From: Chloroflexota bacterium | Lineage (GTDB): Bacteria > Chloroflexota > Limnocylindria > Limnocylindrales > CSP1-4 | Assembly (NCBI GenBank): GCA_027346765.1 | Contig: DAIERN010000107.1 | Location: forward strand, 1-5,520 | Length of the DNA stretch: 5,520 bases | Direction: 5' to 3' | Shown: piece by piece, positions 1 to 5,520 of the stretch | Layout of the letters: every line of letters starts with the position of its first letter | How positions within the stretch are numbered: the stretch's first letter is position 1 | Notes under the pieces: model-generated | Databases searched by the model: none | Told to the model about the DNA's origin: nothing | What the model saw: the letters and a program-made list of their open reading frames with translations, nothing else | Program-made: the position numbers and the translations under genes

Positions 1-1
1 G

Positions 2-499
2 AAGACCGCGGTCTCCGGTGTCGCGACCTACGCCGGCTGCTCCCTGACGGCGGCGGGCTCGCGCACGCTCACCGCGACCACGACCGGCCTGACGGCGAAC
101 ACGGCGACGAGCGACTCGGTCACGGTGAGCGCCGCCTCCGCGACGATCGACGGGCCCGCGGACGCGGCGACGGTCACCGCCCGGTTCACCGCGGCGCAGG
201 TCGCGCAGCTGCTCTCGGTTGCGGCCGCGCACAACGGGCTGACGCTCGACAAGGTGGACGTGACTGACTCCGGCGTCAGGGTCACGGTGCACGGCATCGA
301 GGCCGCCGCCAAGCTGAGCGTGCGCGGCGGCGCGTTGCTGCTCGATCCCGGCGCAGGTGGAACGCTCGTGCTGATCCAGCCGGCGGCGCGCGACCCGTGG
401 CGCCTGACCGACGTCTGGTTCAGCGCCAACGGCATGAATCTCGCCGGCACGGTCGACATCGCGCGGATAGTGGCTGACCTGTCGGGCGGTGGCGGCTGA
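2..499 (+). CDS. DUF2993 (LmeA-like) protein with Ig-like N-terminal part, 5'-truncated
   Basis: The frame is open from the first bases of the window and ends at TGA 497-499, giving 165 visible residues; almost every third codon base is G or C, so the part upstream of the GTG at 125 is coding too. Residues about 4-43 are Thr/Ser/Ala-rich and carry the pattern GVATYAGCSL...RTLTAT...GLT...TSDSVTVS, which resembles the last strands of bacterial Ig-like repeats. From about residue 50 to the end, the alternating strands, the FTAAQVAQLL helix, the repeated hydrophobic-Gly strands and the terminal NGMNLAGTVDIARIVADL resemble DUF2993. The characterised member of that family, mycobacterial LmeA, is a periplasmic phospholipid-binding protein involved in lipomannan elongation. 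No signal peptide is visible because the N-terminus is missing. The GTG at 125 is an unlikely true start: it would cut through the strand pattern and leave no export signal. Domain calls are by eye. Cell-envelope lipid binding is inferred; the Ig-like call is the weaker of the two. Confidence 0.7.
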   Translation, partial: KTAVSGVATYAGCSLTAAGSRTLTATTTGLTANTATSDSVTVSAASATIDGPADAATVTARFTAAQVAQLLSVAAAHNGLTLDKVDVTDSGVRVTVHGIEAAAKLSVRGGALLLDPGAGGTLVLIQPAARDPWRLTDVWFSANGMNLAGTVDIARIVADLSGGGG

Positions 500-539
500 T
501 GGTGACTAGACTCGGTCCCGCTCACGGATTCCAGCGCTC

Positions 540-543
540 GAGG
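540..543 (+). promoter_or_regulatory. Ribosome binding site for the PRC/MgtE_N/CBS gene
   Basis: GAGG lies 5 nt upstream of the GTG at 549 and supports this start. The 49-bp gap between the upstream stop and this start (500-548) is too short for a known Mg2+ riboswitch. It shows no convincing -35/-10 pair, so the promoter may lie inside the preceding gene. Confidence 0.6.
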
Positions 544-548
544 CAAGC

Positions 549-1814
549 GTGATCCACCTCAGCCAGGTCATCGGCCGGCCGGTCCGCGACCAGAACGGCG
601 AATCGATCGGCAAAGTGGCCGACCTGATCGTCGCCGTGGGTGAGCGCTACCCGCCGGTGACCGGCCTCGTCATCGACACCGACAAGCGCCAGATCTTCCT
701 GCCCTGGTCATCGGTCGCCGCCGTGGATACGAGCGGCGCACGGCTCTCGACATCGCAGCTTGACATCACCAAGTTCAGCCAGCGCCAGAACGAGATCCTG
801 CTGAAGCTCGACCTGCTCGACAAGCAGATCGTCGACATCGACGGGCGGCGCGTGGTGCGCGTCAACGACGTCAGCCTGGACGAGGTCGAGGGCGCGCTCC
901 GCCTGGTGGCGGTCGACGTGGGCACCGCGGGGCTGCTGCGCAGGTTGGGCATCGAAGGCCCGTATCGCACTCTAGCGCGCGGCCTGGGCCGCCCTACCGG
1001 CGAGCGCTACATCGACTGGGAGGACGTCGATCCACTGGAAAGCACCATCGCCGCCGTGAAGCTGCGTGTGCCCCATGCGGGACTGGCCGAGCTGCACCCA
1101 GCCGACCTGGCGACGATCATCGACCAGCTCACGCCACGCGACCGTGCAGGCGTGCTGGCATCGCTCGATGACGAGGCGGTGGCCGACGCGATCGAGGAGC
1201 TCGAACCCGAATCGCAGGTCGACGTGCTGGAGGAGCTTCAGCCCGATCGAGCCGCGGACATCCTCGAGGAGATGAGCCCCGACGACGCGGCCGACCTGGT
1301 CGCCGACCTGTCCGACTCCACCCGGGCGGAGATCCTGGCGCTGATGGAGAAGACCGAGGCGGACGAGGTCAAGGAGCTGCTGGGCTACCCCGAGGAAACT
1401 GCCGGCGGCATCATGACCACCGAGTACATCGCGGTGCCGGCCACGCTCACGGCCGCCCAGACGATCGACAAGCTGCGCTCGCTCGAACCATCGGCAGAGA
1501 CGATCTACTACGTCTATGTCGTGGACGACGACGGCAAGCTTGTCGGCGTGCTGTCGCTGCGCGACCTGATTGTCGCCCAGCCCCAGACCGTGATCCGCGA
1601 CGTGATGATCGATGAGCCGGTCGCCGTGGGGGTTCTCGATCACCAGCGCGAAGTGGCCAACCTGGTCGCGCGCTACAACCTGCTGGCGGTACCCGTGGTC
1701 GACGATGAGGGGCGGCTGGAGGGCATCGTCACGGTCGACGACACGCTCGATTCGCTTCTTCCCGTGGGCTGGAAGAGCCACCTGCCGCGCCGCTTCCCGG
1801 GCAGCACCCGGTGA
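549..1814 (+). CDS. PRC-barrel / MgtE N-terminal / tandem CBS domain protein, probable metal-sensing partner of the Nramp carrier
   Basis: This 421-residue protein is predicted cytosolic, with no membrane segment. Residues 1-60 form a PRC-barrel (IGRPVRDQNGESIGKVADL), and residues about 83-135 look like a second PRC-like unit (VDIDGRRVVRVNDVSL). Residues about 172-280 match the MgtE N-terminal superhelical domain: short helical repeats rich in Asp/Glu such as LQPDRAADILEEMSPDDAADL. CBS1 covers about 288-342 (GGIMTTEYIAV, YYVYVVDDDGKLVGVLSLRDL) and CBS2 about 350-403 (VPVVDDEGRLEGIVTVDD). In MgtE, the N and CBS domains bind Mg2+ through acidic residues and close the channel when Mg2+ is plentiful. 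Here the MgtE transmembrane domain is absent: the chain stops soon after CBS2 with a basic tail. The stop overlaps the next gene's start (GTGA, 1811-1814), so the two products are probably made together. Inference: it senses divalent metal, or adenine nucleotides through CBS, and gates or stabilises the carrier. Domain assignment is secure; the role is inferred. Confidence 0.93.
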   Translation: MIHLSQVIGRPVRDQNGESIGKVADLIVAVGERYPPVTGLVIDTDKRQIFLPWSSVAAVDTSGARLSTSQLDITKFSQRQNEILLKLDLLDKQIVDIDGRRVVRVNDVSLDEVEGALRLVAVDVGTAGLLRRLGIEGPYRTLARGLGRPTGERYIDWEDVDPLESTIAAVKLRVPHAGLAELHPADLATIIDQLTPRDRAGVLASLDDEAVADAIEELEPESQVDVLEELQPDRAADILEEMSPDDAADLVADLSDSTRAEILALMEKTEADEVKELLGYPEETAGGIMTTEYIAVPATLTAAQTIDKLRSLEPSAETIYYVYVVDDDGKLVGVLSLRDLIVAQPQTVIRDVMIDEPVAVGVLDHQREVANLVARYNLLAVPVVDDEGRLEGIVTVDDTLDSLLPVGWKSHLPRRFPGSTR

Positions 1815-3091
1815 CCGCGGCGCCACGCGACGTCGCCCGCCAGACCGGGCCGCGCCGCTTCGGGCGCCGGATGCGTTTCGCCGCCGTCCTGGCGGTGCTG
1901 GGCCCAGGCATCGTCAGCGGCTTCGCCGACAACGACGCTGGCGGCATCACCACCTACTCGCTCGCCGGCGCCAAGTTCGGCTACGACCTGCTGTGGGTGA
2001 TCCTGGTCACCCAGCTGGCGCTGTTCGTGACCCAGGAGATCGGTGCGCGGATGGGCCTCGCCACCGGCCAGGGACTGACCGGGCTGATTCGCGAGCGCTT
2101 CGGCGTGCGCTGGGCGGCGTTTGCCGCATTCACGATGATCGCCGCCAACCTGGGCTCGACGGTGTCCGAGTTCGCCGGCATCAGCGCCGCGCTCTCCCTG
2201 TTTGGGGTACCGGTGCCGGTCAGCGCGGGCCTCGCCGCGGTGGCGGTGATCACGCTCATCAGCTGGGGCAGCTTCGGCCGCGTCCAGTACGTGTTCGTGG
2301 GCATCGGCCTGCTGGTGTCGATCGCCTACGTCGTGTCAGCGGTGCTGTCGCAGCCGGACTGGTCGGTCGCGGCCATCTCATTGATCGTGCCGCACGGCAC
2401 GTTCAGCGGCGCGTACATGCTCGCGGTCGTGGGTACCGTGGGCACCACGATCACCCCGTGGGGCCAGGGCTTCATCCAGGCTTACGTGGTGGACAAACGG
2501 CTGCGGCCAGAGGAGCTCGCGGCTGAGCGGCTCGACGTGCTGATCGGCGTGCTGATCACCAACGTTGTTGCCGCGTTCATCGTCATCGCGTGCGCGGCGA
2601 CGCTCTTCACCGTTGGTCAGCGCGACATCACCGACGCCGCGCAGGCCGCGCAGGCCCTGGGACCCATCGCCGGGCCGGTCGCGTCGACGCTGTTCGCGAT
2701 CGGACTTCTGGCCGCGTCGCTGTTAGGGCTGGGCGTCGTTCCGCTGGCGTCGGCGTACACCGCCTGCGAGGCCTTCGGTTGGGAGCAGGGTGTGGGTTGG
2801 CGGTTGCGCGAAGCGCCGGCCTTCTACGGCCTGCTGGCGTTCTTCATCGGCTTCGCGGCGCTGTTCATGCTCATCCCCGGACTGCCGCTGATCCAGGTCA
2901 TGTTCAGCGCCCAGGTGATCAACGGCCTGCTGCTGCCGGTGATCCTGGTGTTCGTGATGCTGCTCGCGGGCGACAAGCGGCTGATGGGCAATCTCGTCAG
3001 CGGCCGGATCAACCTGGCGCTGGGCTGGCTCGTCACGGTGATGCTCATCGTGATGTCGATCGTGCTGGTGCTGACGGCCTTCAGCGGCTAA
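1811..3091 (+). CDS. Nramp-family (SLC11) divalent metal transporter with altered metal site, NRMT-like, probable Mg2+ transporter
   Basis: This 426-residue protein has about 11 hydrophobic segments and a basic N-terminus. It is recognisable as Nramp from GPGIVSGFADNDAGGITTYSLAGAKFGYDLLW (residues 31-62, TM1-2 region), the TM3 stretch around SEFAGISAAL (119-128), and the TM10-type AQVINGLLLP. Key motifs differ from proton-coupled Mn/Fe transporters. TM1 DPGN is D42-A-G-G45, so the metal-binding Asn is lost while the Asp stays. TM6 MPHN is T215-P-W-G218, so both the soft-metal-selective Met and the proton-pathway His are lost. The TM3 Asp is T117, although E120 is kept. Loss of the Met and of proton-relay residues is what I recall of the NRAMP-related magnesium transporters, whose wider site takes hydrated Mg2+. 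Start GTG 1811 overlaps the upstream TGA by 4 bases with no clear Shine-Dalgarno, implying translational coupling to the MgtE_N/CBS protein. The symbol mntH would mislead. Family certain; Mg2+ specificity inferred. Confidence 0.93.
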   Translation: MTAAPRDVARQTGPRRFGRRMRFAAVLAVLGPGIVSGFADNDAGGITTYSLAGAKFGYDLLWVILVTQLALFVTQEIGARMGLATGQGLTGLIRERFGVRWAAFAAFTMIAANLGSTVSEFAGISAALSLFGVPVPVSAGLAAVAVITLISWGSFGRVQYVFVGIGLLVSIAYVVSAVLSQPDWSVAAISLIVPHGTFSGAYMLAVVGTVGTTITPWGQGFIQAYVVDKRLRPEELAAERLDVLIGVLITNVVAAFIVIACAATLFTVGQRDITDAAQAAQALGPIAGPVASTLFAIGLLAASLLGLGVVPLASAYTACEAFGWEQGVGWRLREAPAFYGLLAFFIGFAALFMLIPGLPLIQVMFSAQVINGLLLPVILVFVMLLAGDKRLMGNLVSGRINLALGWLVTVMLIVMSIVLVLTAFSG

Positions 3092-3094
3092 GGC

Positions 3095-3183
3095 TGGTGG
3101 GCGAGGCCGGATTTGAACCGGCAAGCCGCTTTCGCGGCACGGGGTTCTAAGCCCCGCGCGTATGCCTGTTTCGCCACTCGCCC
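3095..3183 (-). tRNA. tRNA-Leu, anticodon UAG
   Basis: All arms can be folded from the minus strand. The acceptor GGGCGAG (3183-3177) pairs with CTCGCCC (3105-3099). The D stem is GCG/CGC (3174-3172 with 3160-3158). The anticodon stem CGGGG/CCCCG (3156-3152 with 3144-3140) closes the loop CTTAGAA, with anticodon TAG at 3149-3147. The type II variable arm is GCCGC-GAAA-GCGGC (3138-3125), and the T arm is GCCGG-TTCAAAT-CCGGC (3122-3106). The discriminator is A (3098) and CCA is genome-encoded (3097-3095). The long variable arm and UAG anticodon identify leucine, reading CUA and by wobble other CUN codons. The 3' end lies 3 bp from the stop codon of the convergent Nramp gene. The 5' end lies 23 bp after the arsR stop on the same strand, with no obvious promoter in that gap. 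Confidence 0.97.
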
Positions 3184-3206
3184 CGGAATTCGAGTCTAAC
3201 GGCGTC

Positions 3207-3545
3207 TCAACCCAGCGGCTGGATCACCGGCAGTCGCCGTGCGGAGGCCGCAGGCGCGACCCGCGCAACCGGGTTGAGCTGCCCGGCCAGCTCCTGGAAG
3301 CGCGCCACGGCTTCTGGCCGCAGCTGGTAGTAGACGAACGAGCCACGCCGCTCCGAGCGCACCCAGCCGGATTCGCGGAGAACCTTCAGGTGGTGGCTGA
3401 CCGTGGGCTGAGCCACCTCGCAGCATGCCGTGAAATCGCACGCGCACACCTGCTCGCCGCTCGCCAGCTGGCGCAGGATCGCCAAACGGCTCGGATCCGC
3501 CGCACCGCGCAGTAGGAGCTCGTCTGGGTCAGCGGGCTGCTTCAT
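3207..3545 (-). CDS. arsR: ArsR/SmtB-family arsenic-responsive transcriptional repressor
   Basis: Taken from the ATG at 3545, the product has 112 residues, the usual size for this family of small winged-helix homodimers. In-frame ATG/TTG codons further upstream (3557, 3569, 3581) are rejected because they lie in the promoter; the 3545 ATG sits 7 nt after a TATGAT -10 box and begins MKQPADPDELLLRGAADPSRL. The helix-turn-helix is CEVAQPTVSHHLKVLRESGW, followed by the wing RRGSFVYYQL. Cysteines C34 and C36 in VCACD correspond to the first two arsenite ligands of the E. coli ArsR ELCVCD motif. The third E. coli Cys position is Thr39 here, and an extra pair C41-C42 follows, so As(III) or Sb(III) could bind in a variant three-Cys site. 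In the metal-free state the dimer should bind the palindrome between arsR and arsM and repress both; arsenite would release it. The C-terminus after about residue 80 is a low-complexity Pro/Ala/Arg tail. Divergent arsM makes arsenic the likely inducer. Confidence 0.92.
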   Translation of the reverse strand: MKQPADPDELLLRGAADPSRLAILRQLASGEQVCACDFTACCEVAQPTVSHHLKVLRESGWVRSERRGSFVYYQLRPEAVARFQELAGQLNPVARVAPAASARRLPVIQPLG

Positions 3546-3552
3546 GACAAAT

Positions 3553-3581
3553 ATCATATTGACAAACATCGATATTGGCAA
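3553..3581 (-). promoter_or_regulatory. arsR promoter, predicted leaderless
   Basis: On the minus strand, -35 TTGCCA (3581-3576) and -10 TATGAT (3558-3553) are separated by 17 nt. Each matches the sigma70-type consensus at 5 of 6 positions. Seven nt (3552-3546) separate the -10 box from the arsR ATG at 3545, so transcription should start at or next to the A of the start codon. No Shine-Dalgarno exists upstream. The -35 element lies inside the operator palindrome, which explains autorepression. Predicted from sequence only. Confidence 0.7.
3556..3569 (+). repeat. Operator-like direct repeat, second ArsR half-site candidate
   Basis: ATATTGACAAACAT (3556-3569) is an imperfect copy of ATATTGGCAACTAT (3572-3585), 10 of 14 positions identical and offset by 16 bp. 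It overlaps the arsM -35 TTGACA and abuts the main palindrome. It could be a weaker second binding site, or the resemblance could come partly from both copies containing TTG(A/G)CA -35-type sequence. Confidence 0.4.
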
Positions 3582-3588
3582 CTATCAA
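3559..3588 (+). promoter_or_regulatory. arsM promoter, predicted leaderless
   Basis: -35 TTGACA (3559-3564) is a perfect consensus match. With an 18-nt spacer, -10 TATCAA (3583-3588) matches TATAAT at 4 of 6 positions. Seven nt (3589-3595) separate it from the ATG at 3596, so the expected transcription start falls at the start codon. No Shine-Dalgarno is present before that ATG. The -10 and spacer are inside the ArsR palindrome, so repressor binding should block RNA polymerase. The weaker -10 leaves some doubt about the exact hexamer. Confidence 0.65.
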
Positions 3589-3593
3589 TATCG
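3570..3593. promoter_or_regulatory. ArsR operator palindrome
   Basis: CGATATTG (3570-3577) and CAATATCG (3586-3593) form a perfect 8-bp inverted repeat around an 8-bp centre. Its core ATATTG-N8-CAATAT has the size and AT-rich dyad form typical of ArsR/SmtB dimer sites. It overlaps the -35 of arsR and the spacer plus -10 of arsM, so one bound dimer could silence both promoters. It is one of the few AT-rich patches in otherwise GC-rich DNA. Confidence 0.8.
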
Positions 3594-3595
3594 CC

Positions 3596-4471
3596 ATGAC
3601 AACGACAGCCGTCGCCCCGGCGACCATCGACACGACCGATTCCACCCAGGCCATCCATGAAGAGGTCCGCGCTCGCTACGCCGCGGCCGCGGTGACCGCG
3701 CAGTCCGGTTGCTGCGCCGCCGACGGCGACGAGGCGCCCGGCCCCACCTTCTACTCCGCGCTGGAGCGATCAGAGCTGCCCGACGCGGCTGTCCTGGCCA
3801 GCCTGGGCTGCGGCAATCCCCTTGCCGTGGCCGACCTGCACGAGGGCGAGCGCGTGCTCGATCTTGGCAGCGGTGGCGGCATCGACGTTCTGCTCTCGGC
3901 CAAGCGGGTCGGCCCAACCGGCCGCGCCATCGGCCTGGACATGACCGACGAGATGCTCGCGCTGGCACAGCGCAACGCCGCGCAGGCGGGCGCGACCAAC
4001 GTCGAGTTCGTCCGCGGCCATATCGAAGACATTCCCCTGCCGGCCGAGTCGGTCGACGTCGTCATCAGCAACTGCGTGATCAACCTCGCGGCCGACAAGC
4101 CGGCGGTGTTCCGCGAGATCGCCCGGGTGCTCAAGCCGGGCGGCCGGCTGGGCTTCGCCGACATCGTCGCCGACGATCGCCTCTCCCCCGCCGAGCGCGG
4201 CGAGCGTGGCTCCTATGTGAGCTGCATCGCCGGCGCGCTCTCGTACAGCGAGTTCGCCGCCGGGCTGGAGTCGGTCGGGCTGACCGACATTTCGCTGACC
4301 GCGACTCACGCGGTGGCGGACGGCCTGGACAGCGCGATCATCAAGGCCACCAAGCCAATCGCCGGTGCGGCTACGGCCGCGGCGCCCGCGATCGACGTCA
4401 GCCGGCGCGAGCTGCCGCTGGCCCAGAAGTCAGCCGGCAGCTGCGGCTGCGGCGAGGGCGGCTGCTGCTAG
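3596..4471 (+). CDS. arsM: Arsenite S-adenosylmethionine methyltransferase
   Basis: This 291-residue cytosolic enzyme transfers methyl groups from S-adenosylmethionine to As(III), giving methylated and finally volatile arsines. The Rossmann SAM-binding core has motif [17 protein letters not shown] (88-102), acidic GLDMTDEM (113-120) and the post-core [14 protein letters not shown] (178-191). The ArsM-type cysteines are present: C39/C40 in the N-terminal SGCC, C72 in SLGCGNPL, C160 in ISNCVINL and C210 in YVSCIAGAL. The last two are the As(III)-binding pair of known ArsM enzymes, and the N-terminal ones take part in the disulfide relay. The chain ends in a Cys-rich tail, [11 protein letters not shown] (281-291). 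ATG 3596 is chosen because it follows the -10 box by 7 nt; the in-frame TTG at 3575 lies inside the operator. It is transcribed divergently from arsR. The stop codon shares a CTAG with the convergent gene. Length and motifs are normal, so the enzyme is probably active. Confidence 0.95.
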
Positions 4472-5046
4472 CGCCTGGCCTCTTGGTCGACCTGGGCCAT
4501 CTCGCGCGCTTCGTCCACGCGGACTTCCTTGGGAACGGCGAATAGCTTCTTGACGAGTTCCCGCGCGGCGGCAGCGCCGACGATGCCCAGCAGCATGTCG
4601 TAGGTCTTCCAGGCCGACGTCCGCGCGGTGGGCGGATCCTTGGGGTGCTCCGCGCGCAGGTACGCGGCGAAGTCTTTCTCCAGATGGGCGCGCACCTTGT
4701 CGCGGTCCTCCTCGGGCAGTCTGTCGAGCGACTTCTCGATGTCGCGCGGCAGGACCTTGGGCGGCCGCTCGTAGCGCTTGGGGAAGAGCTGCTTCTCGAT
4801 CGTCTGCGCAAGGCGGCGTGGCCCGCCCAACAGGAGGAACGCCGCACCGCCCGCCGCGCCCAGCGTTGGCACCGGGTTGGCCTTGATCTTCGCCGGGATG
4901 TTGACCGCCGCGCGCACGGAAGTATTGAGGTTGTCGAGCTCGGCCGCGACGTTCCGGCGCGCACCGTCGACATCCTTGAGCGCCGCGGCGACGCGCGGCG
5001 CCGGCGGCGTTACCGGCCGCCCAGCTTCGATCGTCTCGTCTGCCAT
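4468..5046 (-). CDS. Hypothetical membrane-associated protein, unrecognised family
   Basis: I do not recognise a characterised family. The 192-residue product has a charged helical N-terminal part (about 15-57, VDGARRNVAAELDNLNTSVRAAV) ending in IPAKIKANPVP. A short Gly/Ala/Leu-rich hydrophobic segment follows at about 60-75 (GAAGGAAFLLLGGPRR). This layout loosely recalls DUF3618-type actinobacterial proteins. The middle (about 90-140) is highly charged (RPPKVLPRDIEKSLDRLPEEDRDKVRAHLEKDF). A second amphipathic or hydrophobic helix lies at about 149-169, before an acidic/basic tail. The start at ATG 5046 is well supported by GGAGGAG just upstream. The gene overlaps the 3' end of the upstream gene by 37 bp, so the two are probably translationally coupled. 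Its TAG is embedded in the same CTAG as the arsM stop. The unusually strong SD contrasts with the leaderless arsenic genes. No function is proposed beyond envelope association. Confidence 0.8.
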   Translation of the reverse strand: MADETIEAGRPVTPPAPRVAAALKDVDGARRNVAAELDNLNTSVRAAVNIPAKIKANPVPTLGAAGGAAFLLLGGPRRLAQTIEKQLFPKRYERPPKVLPRDIEKSLDRLPEEDRDKVRAHLEKDFAAYLRAEHPKDPPTARTSAWKTYDMLLGIVGAAAARELVKKLFAVPKEVRVDEAREMAQVDQEARR

Positions 5047-5520
5047 TGCTCCTCCAACCAGGCGCGGGTTTCGTTCGCGGCGTCAATCGATCTGCGCGGA
5101 TACAGCTTCGCGAAGCGCGCGCCGGGGTCCAACCGGGGCAGCGCCATTACCGCGTCGAGGATCGGCCACAGGATCAGCCCAAAGGTGATCGCAAAGCCGA
5201 TTGCCGGCGGCCATGTCCACGGGGCCGCGGCGATGAGCCAGCCAATGGGCATGCCCAAGATGGCACCGACCAACACGCCACCGATGAACCCACCGCGGCC
5301 GGCCAGCCTGCCCAGCATCAACGCGAACAGGATCGCCCCGATCACGGCGCCGGCGACCAACGCGACCGCGACCGTGCTATCGAGCGGGAAGGCGAGCTGG
5401 CCCGCGGCACTGTTGGCCGCGTTATAGGCAGCGTTGGAGCCGCACAGCCAGGCCAGGGCGATCGTCGCCAGCACCGCCAGCAAGAGGCTGCCCAGCGCCG
5501 CGCGGCGCGACGCGCCGACG
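5010..5520 (-). CDS. Hypothetical multi-pass membrane protein, 5' end outside window
   Basis: The frame is open from the window edge to TAA at 5012-5010, giving about 169 visible residues. The TTG at 5483 is not compelling as a start, because the frame continues upstream as GASRRAALGSL and leads straight into the first hydrophobic segment; the true start is probably just beyond the window. Four hydrophobic segments are visible: LLLAVLATIALAWLCG, VAVALVAGAVIGAILFALML, a Gly-rich FIGGVLVGAILGMPIGWLIAA, and IGFAITFGLILWPILDAVMAL. A roughly 45-residue Arg-rich, presumably cytosolic tail follows (YPRRSIDAANETRAWLEEQW). The repeated small-residue G/A-x3-G patterns suggest tightly packed helices. 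I cannot assign a family. It is the first gene of a two-gene minus-strand unit, and its last 37 bp contain the start and Shine-Dalgarno of the next gene, so the two products may act together at the membrane. Confidence 0.75.
   Translation of the reverse strand, partial: VGASRRAALGSLLLAVLATIALAWLCGSNAAYNAANSAAGQLAFPLDSTVAVALVAGAVIGAILFALMLGRLAGRGGFIGGVLVGAILGMPIGWLIAAAPWTWPPAIGFAITFGLILWPILDAVMALPRLDPGARFAKLYPRRSIDAANETRAWLEEQWQTRRSKLGGR
5049..5055 (-). promoter_or_regulatory. Strong Shine-Dalgarno deciding the start at 5046
   Basis: GGAGGAG on the minus strand lies just upstream of ATG 5046, with 4 nt between its GGAGG and the start codon. It is inside the coding sequence of the upstream gene, where it encodes Glu-Glu. 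It is the best ribosome binding site in the window. Confidence 0.8.

Follow-up and report, generated by a model that had tools for sequence, protein, structure and literature searches.

The stretch of DNA analysed here, which we call the window, comprises 5,520 nucleotides (GC content 0.66-0.73, and thus GC-rich) from a Chloroflexota bacterium of the Limnocylindrales (GenBank assembly GCA_027346765.1, contig DAIERN010000107.1, positions 1 to 5,520). Our subject is a pair of overlapping genes within it, the first encoding a protein that resembles the cytoplasmic, Mg2+-sensing part of the channel MgtE, and the second a carrier of the Nramp fold belonging to the NRMT (NRAMP-related Mg2+ transporter) type. 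The question at stake is how NRMT importers avoid overfilling the cell with Mg2+.

A detached sensor gene and an NRMT-type carrier gene

Both open reading frames (ORFs) are present, the regulator stop codon TGA (1812-1814) overlapping the carrier start codon GTG (1811-1813), and the ORFs together with the Pfam assignments confirm the preliminary description in its view that PRC, MgtE_N and CBS domains form a separate protein here whose stop lies over the start of the carrier (Table 1).

Table 1. Features of the sensor-carrier locus in window coordinates
Feature	Position	Strand	Basis
Detached Mg2+-sensor protein, 421 aa: PRC, MgtE_N, CBS-CBS, without membrane domain	549..1814	+	ORF, Pfam, structure model
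First PRC-barrel, residues 2-60	552..728	+	Pfam PF05239; strands in model
Second PRC-like beta domain, about residues 82-123	792..917	+	Two PRC stretches in Pfam; limits inferred from model
MgtE_N domain, residues 182-283	1092..1397	+	Pfam, alignment
CBS pair, about residues 286-403	1404..1757	+	Pfam, alignment; lower limit inferred
Basic C-terminal tail, residues 404-421, at the place of the MgtE acidic plug helix	1758..1811	+	Sequence, model
4-base overlap, regulator stop/carrier start	1811..1814	+	ORF list
NRMT-type Nramp-fold carrier, 426 aa	1811..3091	+	ORF, Pfam, alignment, tree, model
TM1 site N41-D42-A43-G44-G45 (DxxG half of NRMT signature)	1931..1945	+	Alignment
TM3 T117...E120: Asp lost, Glu kept	2159..2170	+	Alignment
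TM6 site T212-T-I-T215-P-W217 (TxxT half of NRMT signature)	2444..2461	+	Alignment

The carrier matches the Pfam Nramp family (1.3e-81) and, among solved structures, EleNRMT (7qia, 1.2e-97, 45% identity) far ahead of the best MntH entry (8.6e-30). Its AlphaFold2 model (predicted local distance difference test, pLDDT, 90.9; predicted TM-score, pTM, 0.89) superimposes on EleNRMT with TM-scores of 0.89/0.95 and on the DraNramp entries 8e60 and 8e6l with 0.85 and 0.82 (query length). When aligned to the Nramp/MntH protein of D. radiodurans, the Asn of transmembrane helix 1 (TM1) is replaced by G45, the TM3 Asp by T117, the TM6 Met by T215 and the TM6 His by W217, while the TM1 Asp (D42) and the TM3 Glu (E120) are retained. 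All four losses named in the preliminary description are therefore real, but they are not unusual, for they fit the published NRMT binding-site signature DxxG-TxxA/T (PMC8806188, in its accessible text), which the carrier carries as D42..G45 and T212..T215; in place of the classical MntH motifs DPGN (TM1) and MPH (TM6) it has NDAGG and TPW. Likewise the MntH model NF001923 scores 141 bits, below its cut-off of 430, and the general Nramp model NF037982 just passes (53.7 against 50).

Placement in a tree with an NRMT reference, as had been proposed, sets the carrier on the side of EleNRMT and outside MntH. In a FastTree phylogeny of 199 carriers, into which some genomes entered twice, both lie within a 159-tip clade (support 0.892) that leaves out all 21 tips with DPGN/MPH motifs; a smaller clade uniting the window carrier with EleNRMT has a support of 0.56. 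Among the best 120 of 6626 matches the nearest carriers are 80-98% identical to that of the window, and six of the eight with a named organism come from Chloroflexota or Candidatus Limnocylindrales. The carrier is thus of NRMT type, grouping with EleNRMT and not with MntH; by homology it would transport Mg2+ without proton coupling, and it can probably pass Mn2+ too.

The sensor protein combines PRC (2.6e-11, two stretches), MgtE_N (3.3e-27) and CBS (3.8e-19, two stretches) matches, together with a marginal FliG_M match inside MgtE_N (25.8 bits, cut-off 25). Pfam finds no match to the MgtE membrane domain PF01769 in the protein, which ends 18 residues past the second CBS domain (CBS2), and TIGR00400 reaches 204 bits, under its cut-off of 232.75. 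Its structure model (pLDDT 85.4, pTM 0.66; residues 410-421 below pLDDT 50) resembles the MgtE cytosolic domains 2oux and 2yvy (TM-score 0.82 and 0.85, target length), the Foldseek matches to T. thermophilus MgtE showing 43-45% identity.

Residues were mapped to T. thermophilus MgtE, all 18 check residues falling in register, and their conservation was followed in 60 sensors, namely that of the window and 59 relatives, not independent of one another, from loci L001-L080, the best 80 of 404 confirmed places in a scan of species genomes. The roles of the Mg2+ and ATP residues are taken from the accessible parts of PMC5882242 and PMC5529423. Of the six Mg2+ ligands tested, the window sensor has an acidic residue at five and N377 at the sixth (D226 in MgtE); the positions of E59, D91, D95, D247 and D250 are occupied by D213, D245, D249, D398 and D401, and are acidic in 49, 53, 58, 55 and 51 of the 60 sensors, respectively. 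At the ATP site Tyr170, Arg187 and Asp188 are retained (51, 53 and 55 of 60) and Asn203 is lost.

The acidic plug helix of MgtE is missing, a basic tail standing instead. Over the 20 residues after CBS2 the mean charge is +2.6 in 62 sensors of L001-L080 (positive in 53) and +1.8 in 59 survey sensors. The means are -5.4 for 43 PRC-bearing proteins in which Pfam finds an MgtE membrane domain and -5.5 for another 35 with PRC, which include at least one short protein. Two shortened sensors also precede NRMT genes (L015:105-668, 187 aa; L019:5183-5941, 252 aa); their match to the sensor model stops near residue 231 and takes in no CBS domain, and that of L019 has no Pfam match at 0.001.

Directly after the carrier lies a tRNA-Leu gene (3095-3183, minus strand), followed by a gene for an ArsR/SmtB-type regulator (3207-3581, minus strand) divergent from one for an arsenite methyltransferase (3575-4471, plus strand; NF008823, 274 bits against a cut-off of 263, with a Cys-rich C-terminus), which from their sequences are likely an arsenic-detoxification pair. 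Minus-strand ORFs at 4468-5046 and 5010-5483 have no Pfam or NCBIfam match at 0.1.

Pairing of sensor and carrier across genomes

Among loci L001-L080 a sensor match lies near the carrier in 66, some of these matches being partial, broken, downstream or 1.2-1.3 kb off, and 23 of the 66 have the 4-base overlap; in three of the remaining 14 the carrier stands at a contig end, and a profile search of the 80 loci for further sensors added none. We also drew 151 Chloroflexota genomes evenly, taking as NRMT-like those carriers with an A1 score of at least 360, a threshold placed afterwards where the listed scores leave a gap, and as detached any MgtE_N match without a detected MgtE membrane domain. 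Adjacency was counted among the matches listed, from which weak matches are missing. On this count 41 of 66 NRMT-like carriers have a detached gene within 3 kb, one has a full-length MgtE-like gene and 24 have neither, and the corresponding figure is 17 of 73 for carriers at 200-310 bits (one with an NRMT gene between) and 1 of 49 for MntH-like carriers, where again an NRMT gene stands between. Conversely, an Nramp gene lies within 3 kb of 55 of 84 detached MgtE_N genes and of 1 of 56 with a membrane domain.

When the survey loci are sorted by binding-site motif, a detached gene adjoins 51 of 65 NRMT-type carriers and none of 21 MntH carriers (DPGN/MPH); the unpaired class takes in carriers at contig ends. 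Carriers with other motifs are paired in 3 of 28 cases, all three NRMT-like with one deviating residue, and those with the Met site but without DPGN in 0 of 3; L094 (other) and L096 (MntH) were set unpaired by hand since an NRMT gene stands between. The association suspected at the outset is hence not sporadic. Nramp-like carriers with DNDAGG and APW sites, mostly longer, adjoin MgtE_N sensors as well (L083-L092, L156), and nine of ten of these sensors in the tree form a separate branch. At L105 a TrkA_C-domain protein (2136-2711, minus strand), perhaps another ligand-sensing partner, adjoins an NRMT gene that has no MgtE_N neighbour.

At the level of whole genomes, a detached MgtE_N gene occurs in 52 of 53 Chloroflexota genomes with NRMT and 21 of 98 without (p 4e-22; these and the following p-values ignore kinship). 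In the exception, G066, the carrier is near a contig end; locus L006, on a contig of equal length, shows a sensor C-terminus at that place. NRMT and full MgtE are not associated across the Chloroflexota genomes (p 0.27). For Actinomycetota (119 genomes) we counted carriers of at least 340 bits as NRMT-like and MgtE_N genes without a strong PF01769 match beside them as non-canonical. A non-canonical gene is found in 26 of 28 NRMT-like genomes and 19 of 91 others (p 5e-12), and adjoins 20 of the 28 NRMT-like carriers. The exceptions are G215 and G276; TM1 reads DDPAG in G276 and G197, and G215 shares their TM6 site, its TM1 not being readable. Near an Nramp-like gene we find 0 of 36 canonical and 25 of 46 non-canonical MgtE genes. 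The link between sensor and NRMT is therefore strong and motif-specific in two phyla.

Evidence pointing to Mg2+ comes from regulatory RNA in relatives. Among 34 distinct loci, eight relatives' operons open with an M-box Mg2+ riboswitch next to the beginning of the sensor gene (L060 and L213, which are one place, and L065, L070, L072, L075, L218, L221 and L228); their carriers share 41-48% identity with that of the window and show the NRMT site. At L201 and L202 the carriers, 88-91% identical to EleNRMT over the compared stretch, follow the same type of sensor, which there ends in one hydrophobic helix. At L221 a c-di-GMP-II riboswitch (4109-4174) lies shortly after the M-box-controlled operon.

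A natural fusion of sensor and carrier was sought as proof of contact, and no credible evolved case emerged. Locus L050 holds a single ORF of 851 aa, but at L049, whose carrier is 99% identical, there are two overlapping genes, the junctions differing by a 2-base length change. Both families, Nramp and MgtE_N, occur in three proteins among the best 120 of 653: P0125 and P0211 look frame-shifted by eye over long stretches, and P0151 joins at an AGGI stretch common to both proteins. The ORF at L016 was set aside as a fusion because it holds unknown bases.

Pore-dead relatives and a proposed sensor family

Full-length PRC-MgtE_N-CBS proteins with a degenerate MgtE membrane domain precede NRMT genes at L093 (Chloroflexota) and at ten Actinomycetota loci. 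When 120 such C-terminal parts are aligned, with the register checked, the position of the pore residue Asp432 holds Asp in all 21 MgtE proteins without PRC and in none of 99 with PRC (77 listed proteins and 22 loci, a set leaning towards L050 relatives). According to the accessible text of PMC5882242, D432A is the Mg1 mutant, and a mutation at Mg1 abolishes conduction. Similarly the motif GGN.G.Q is found in 14 of 21 canonical and 0 of 99 PRC-bearing proteins; the strict form GGN[TS]GxQ, tried as a mark of live MgtE, proved too narrow, occurring in only 6 of the 21.

In a sensor tree of 191 tips, with groups assigned by hand and some genomes present twice, a 137-tip clade (0.948) contains the window sensor, all 22 membrane-domain loci and, of the 111 NRMT-linked sensors that are soluble or have one helix, 103, the other eight falling outside. 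Twenty of the 21 canonical MgtE proteins form their own clade (0.941), and an Actinomycetota branch near DUF1003 genes, together with L277, forms a third (16 tips, support 1.0); deeper nodes are weak (0.12-0.48). This placement suggests that membrane domain and soluble tail have been exchanged within one sensor family. The series would run from sensors keeping a membrane domain without the pore Asp, through those keeping one helix, to those with only a short basic tail, as in the window. On these grounds we propose, with somewhat less than even confidence, that the PRC-bearing MgtE-like proteins are former channels turned into non-conducting Mg2+-sensor subunits of NRMT, their gating module having moved to an unrelated fold.

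PRC by itself does not mark linkage to NRMT, as most sensors of the NRMT-less Actinomycetota branch match it too. The sensors of L261-L273, L275 and L276 in Actinomycetota have tails such as DHLLPDDWRE, with Mrp-like ATPases nearby in several (by eye). Small PRC-only proteins (191-244 aa) also stand beside NRMT genes at L209, L211, L212, L214, L215, L216, L217 and L219; they match just the PRC part of the sensor model, and Pfam confirms PRC in the three tested.

A proposed feedback-controlled Mg2+ importer and its alternatives

The reading that we favour, with a probability of roughly 60%, is that the locus constitutes a two-gene Mg2+ uptake unit, in which an NRMT importer is held in check by an MgtE-type sensor acting as a negative-feedback subunit. 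The carrier would import Mg2+ and the upstream gene would supply the cytoplasmic sensor, acting in trans. At high cytosolic Mg2+ the ion would fill the acidic clusters between MgtE_N and CBS and the sensor would compact; using its PRC domains, its basic C-terminal tail or both, the compacted sensor would then act on the carrier at the membrane and so limit import. The observed basis comprises the two genes and their overlap, the family placement, the motif-specific co-occurrence, the conserved Mg2+ ligands and the M-boxes of relatives; from it we infer Mg2+ as the main substrate, contact between sensor and carrier, and the direction of regulation. Should the sensor be a subunit, a well-studied Mg2+ gate would have been reused across two unrelated transporter folds.

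The idea is not new. Shin et al. (2014, PMC4072509) report, in the accessible text, that a homologue of the MgtE cytoplasmic domain is encoded next to most of the NrmT genes they looked at, and speculate on feedback regulation; the window has just this arrangement, so that its interpretation was largely anticipated. The earlier interpretation is plausible and partly supported, and is now backed by stronger co-occurrence. We found no experimental test of such a pair in the literature beyond that on A. capsulatum in the same paper, and no paper naming MgtE together with the PRC-barrel came up in a search that left subscription journals mostly outside.

Several observations weigh against our reading. 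A riboswitch search of the window found none, including no M-box, and no M-box was found in 29 distinct Chloroflexota loci. Asn occupies the position of the Mg5 ligand D226 in 54 of 60 sensors, and Leu that of the ATP-stacking Phe227 in all 60 (L378 in the window); with these two substitutions gating cannot equal that of MgtE. No MgtE_N match turned up in G003 (L041), an NRMT genome from outside the even draw; the 11 genomes examined with it have at least one each. Detached sensors also occur in 37 of 48 genomes with an MntH-like carrier and 36 of 103 others (p 1.6e-6), so it is adjacency to the sensor, not co-occurrence, that separates NRMT from MntH carriers. Fifteen Actinomycetota sensors stand in genomes, 14 of them without a carrier of 340 bits or more, and DUF1003 was found in two (L271, L275) of three neighbour proteins tested in that 15-locus branch, the neighbour at L264 having no Pfam match; the sensor module can thus exist without NRMT. 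Finally, the A. capsulatum carrier Acp2977, encoded downstream of an MgtE-like gene without an M-box, rescued a Mg2+-uptake mutant only when Mg2+ was in the low-millimolar range, and a co-expressed MgtE fragment gave no better rescue (PMC4072509, accessible text). That assay sought better growth at low Mg2+, where, as we see it, a feedback brake would not be expected to help.

The same carrier fully rescued a Mn2+-uptake mutant, behaving in complementation as a Mn2+ importer, and in view of this the earlier claim that the two halves independently indicate Mg2+ goes too far. The rescue leads to the possibility, considered by Shin et al. for A. capsulatum, that the carrier is mainly a Mn2+ importer, the sensor answers Mn2+ and the unit controls manganese; the lack of an M-box in the window, as for Acp2977, and the Mn2+ uptake by EleNRMT also mentioned in the accessible text of PMC8806188, fit this view. 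We nevertheless regard it as unlikely, since at least 30 of the 53 Chloroflexota NRMT genomes already have an MntH-like gene for manganese, M-boxes precede eight related operons with NRMT-site carriers, and the soft Met ligand is gone from the carrier. Slightly less likely still is a common regulon without contact: both proteins would serve Mg2+ balance, the sensor as a buffer or chaperone for Mg2+ in the cytosol or by acting on targets other than the carrier. Sensors far from NRMT, for example beside CTP synthase (L099, L100, L104), and the NRMT-less Actinomycetota branch, with two tested loci beside DUF1003, would agree with such a role; the 4-base overlap in 23 of the 66 loci argues for a closer relation, as do the C-termini of relatives, which look membrane-directed, be it as a degenerate MgtE membrane domain, as one hydrophobic helix in EleNRMT-like operons or as a basic Trp/Lys/Arg tail. 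That the genes are unrelated chance neighbours is scarcely credible: nothing in its favour was found, and against it stand the pairing by motif in both phyla and what Shin et al. reported for other bacteria.

Among the systems closest to that of the window, the Actinomycetota proteins near DUF1003 have the same domain order as the sensor (by the sensor hidden Markov model) and no membrane domain, but form a separate clade with another type of tail. Rv1232c is presumably one of them. EleNRMT (7qia and others, PMC8806188) shares with the window carrier, beyond 45% identity, the DxxG-TxxA/T site and the fold, but has Ala where the window carrier has Thr at the Met-site position; the structure entries encountered hold the carrier with nanobodies, and a partner gene is not treated in the accessible text. 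The MgtE channel of T. thermophilus (2yvx, 2yvy) has in common the MgtE_N and CBS pair with five of six Mg2+ ligands acidic, whereas the window sensor lacks the membrane domain, has a basic tail for the plug helix, adds PRC domains, and carries Asn for D226 and Leu for F227. The NrmT and MgtE-like unit of Shin et al. agrees in the two-gene arrangement, gene order and proposed feedback role, and differs in having an M-box upstream in part of the group; PRC domains, basic tail and pore-dead relatives are not mentioned in the accessible main text of that paper (PMC4072509). Of all the elements discussed here, the pore-dead relatives are the newest.

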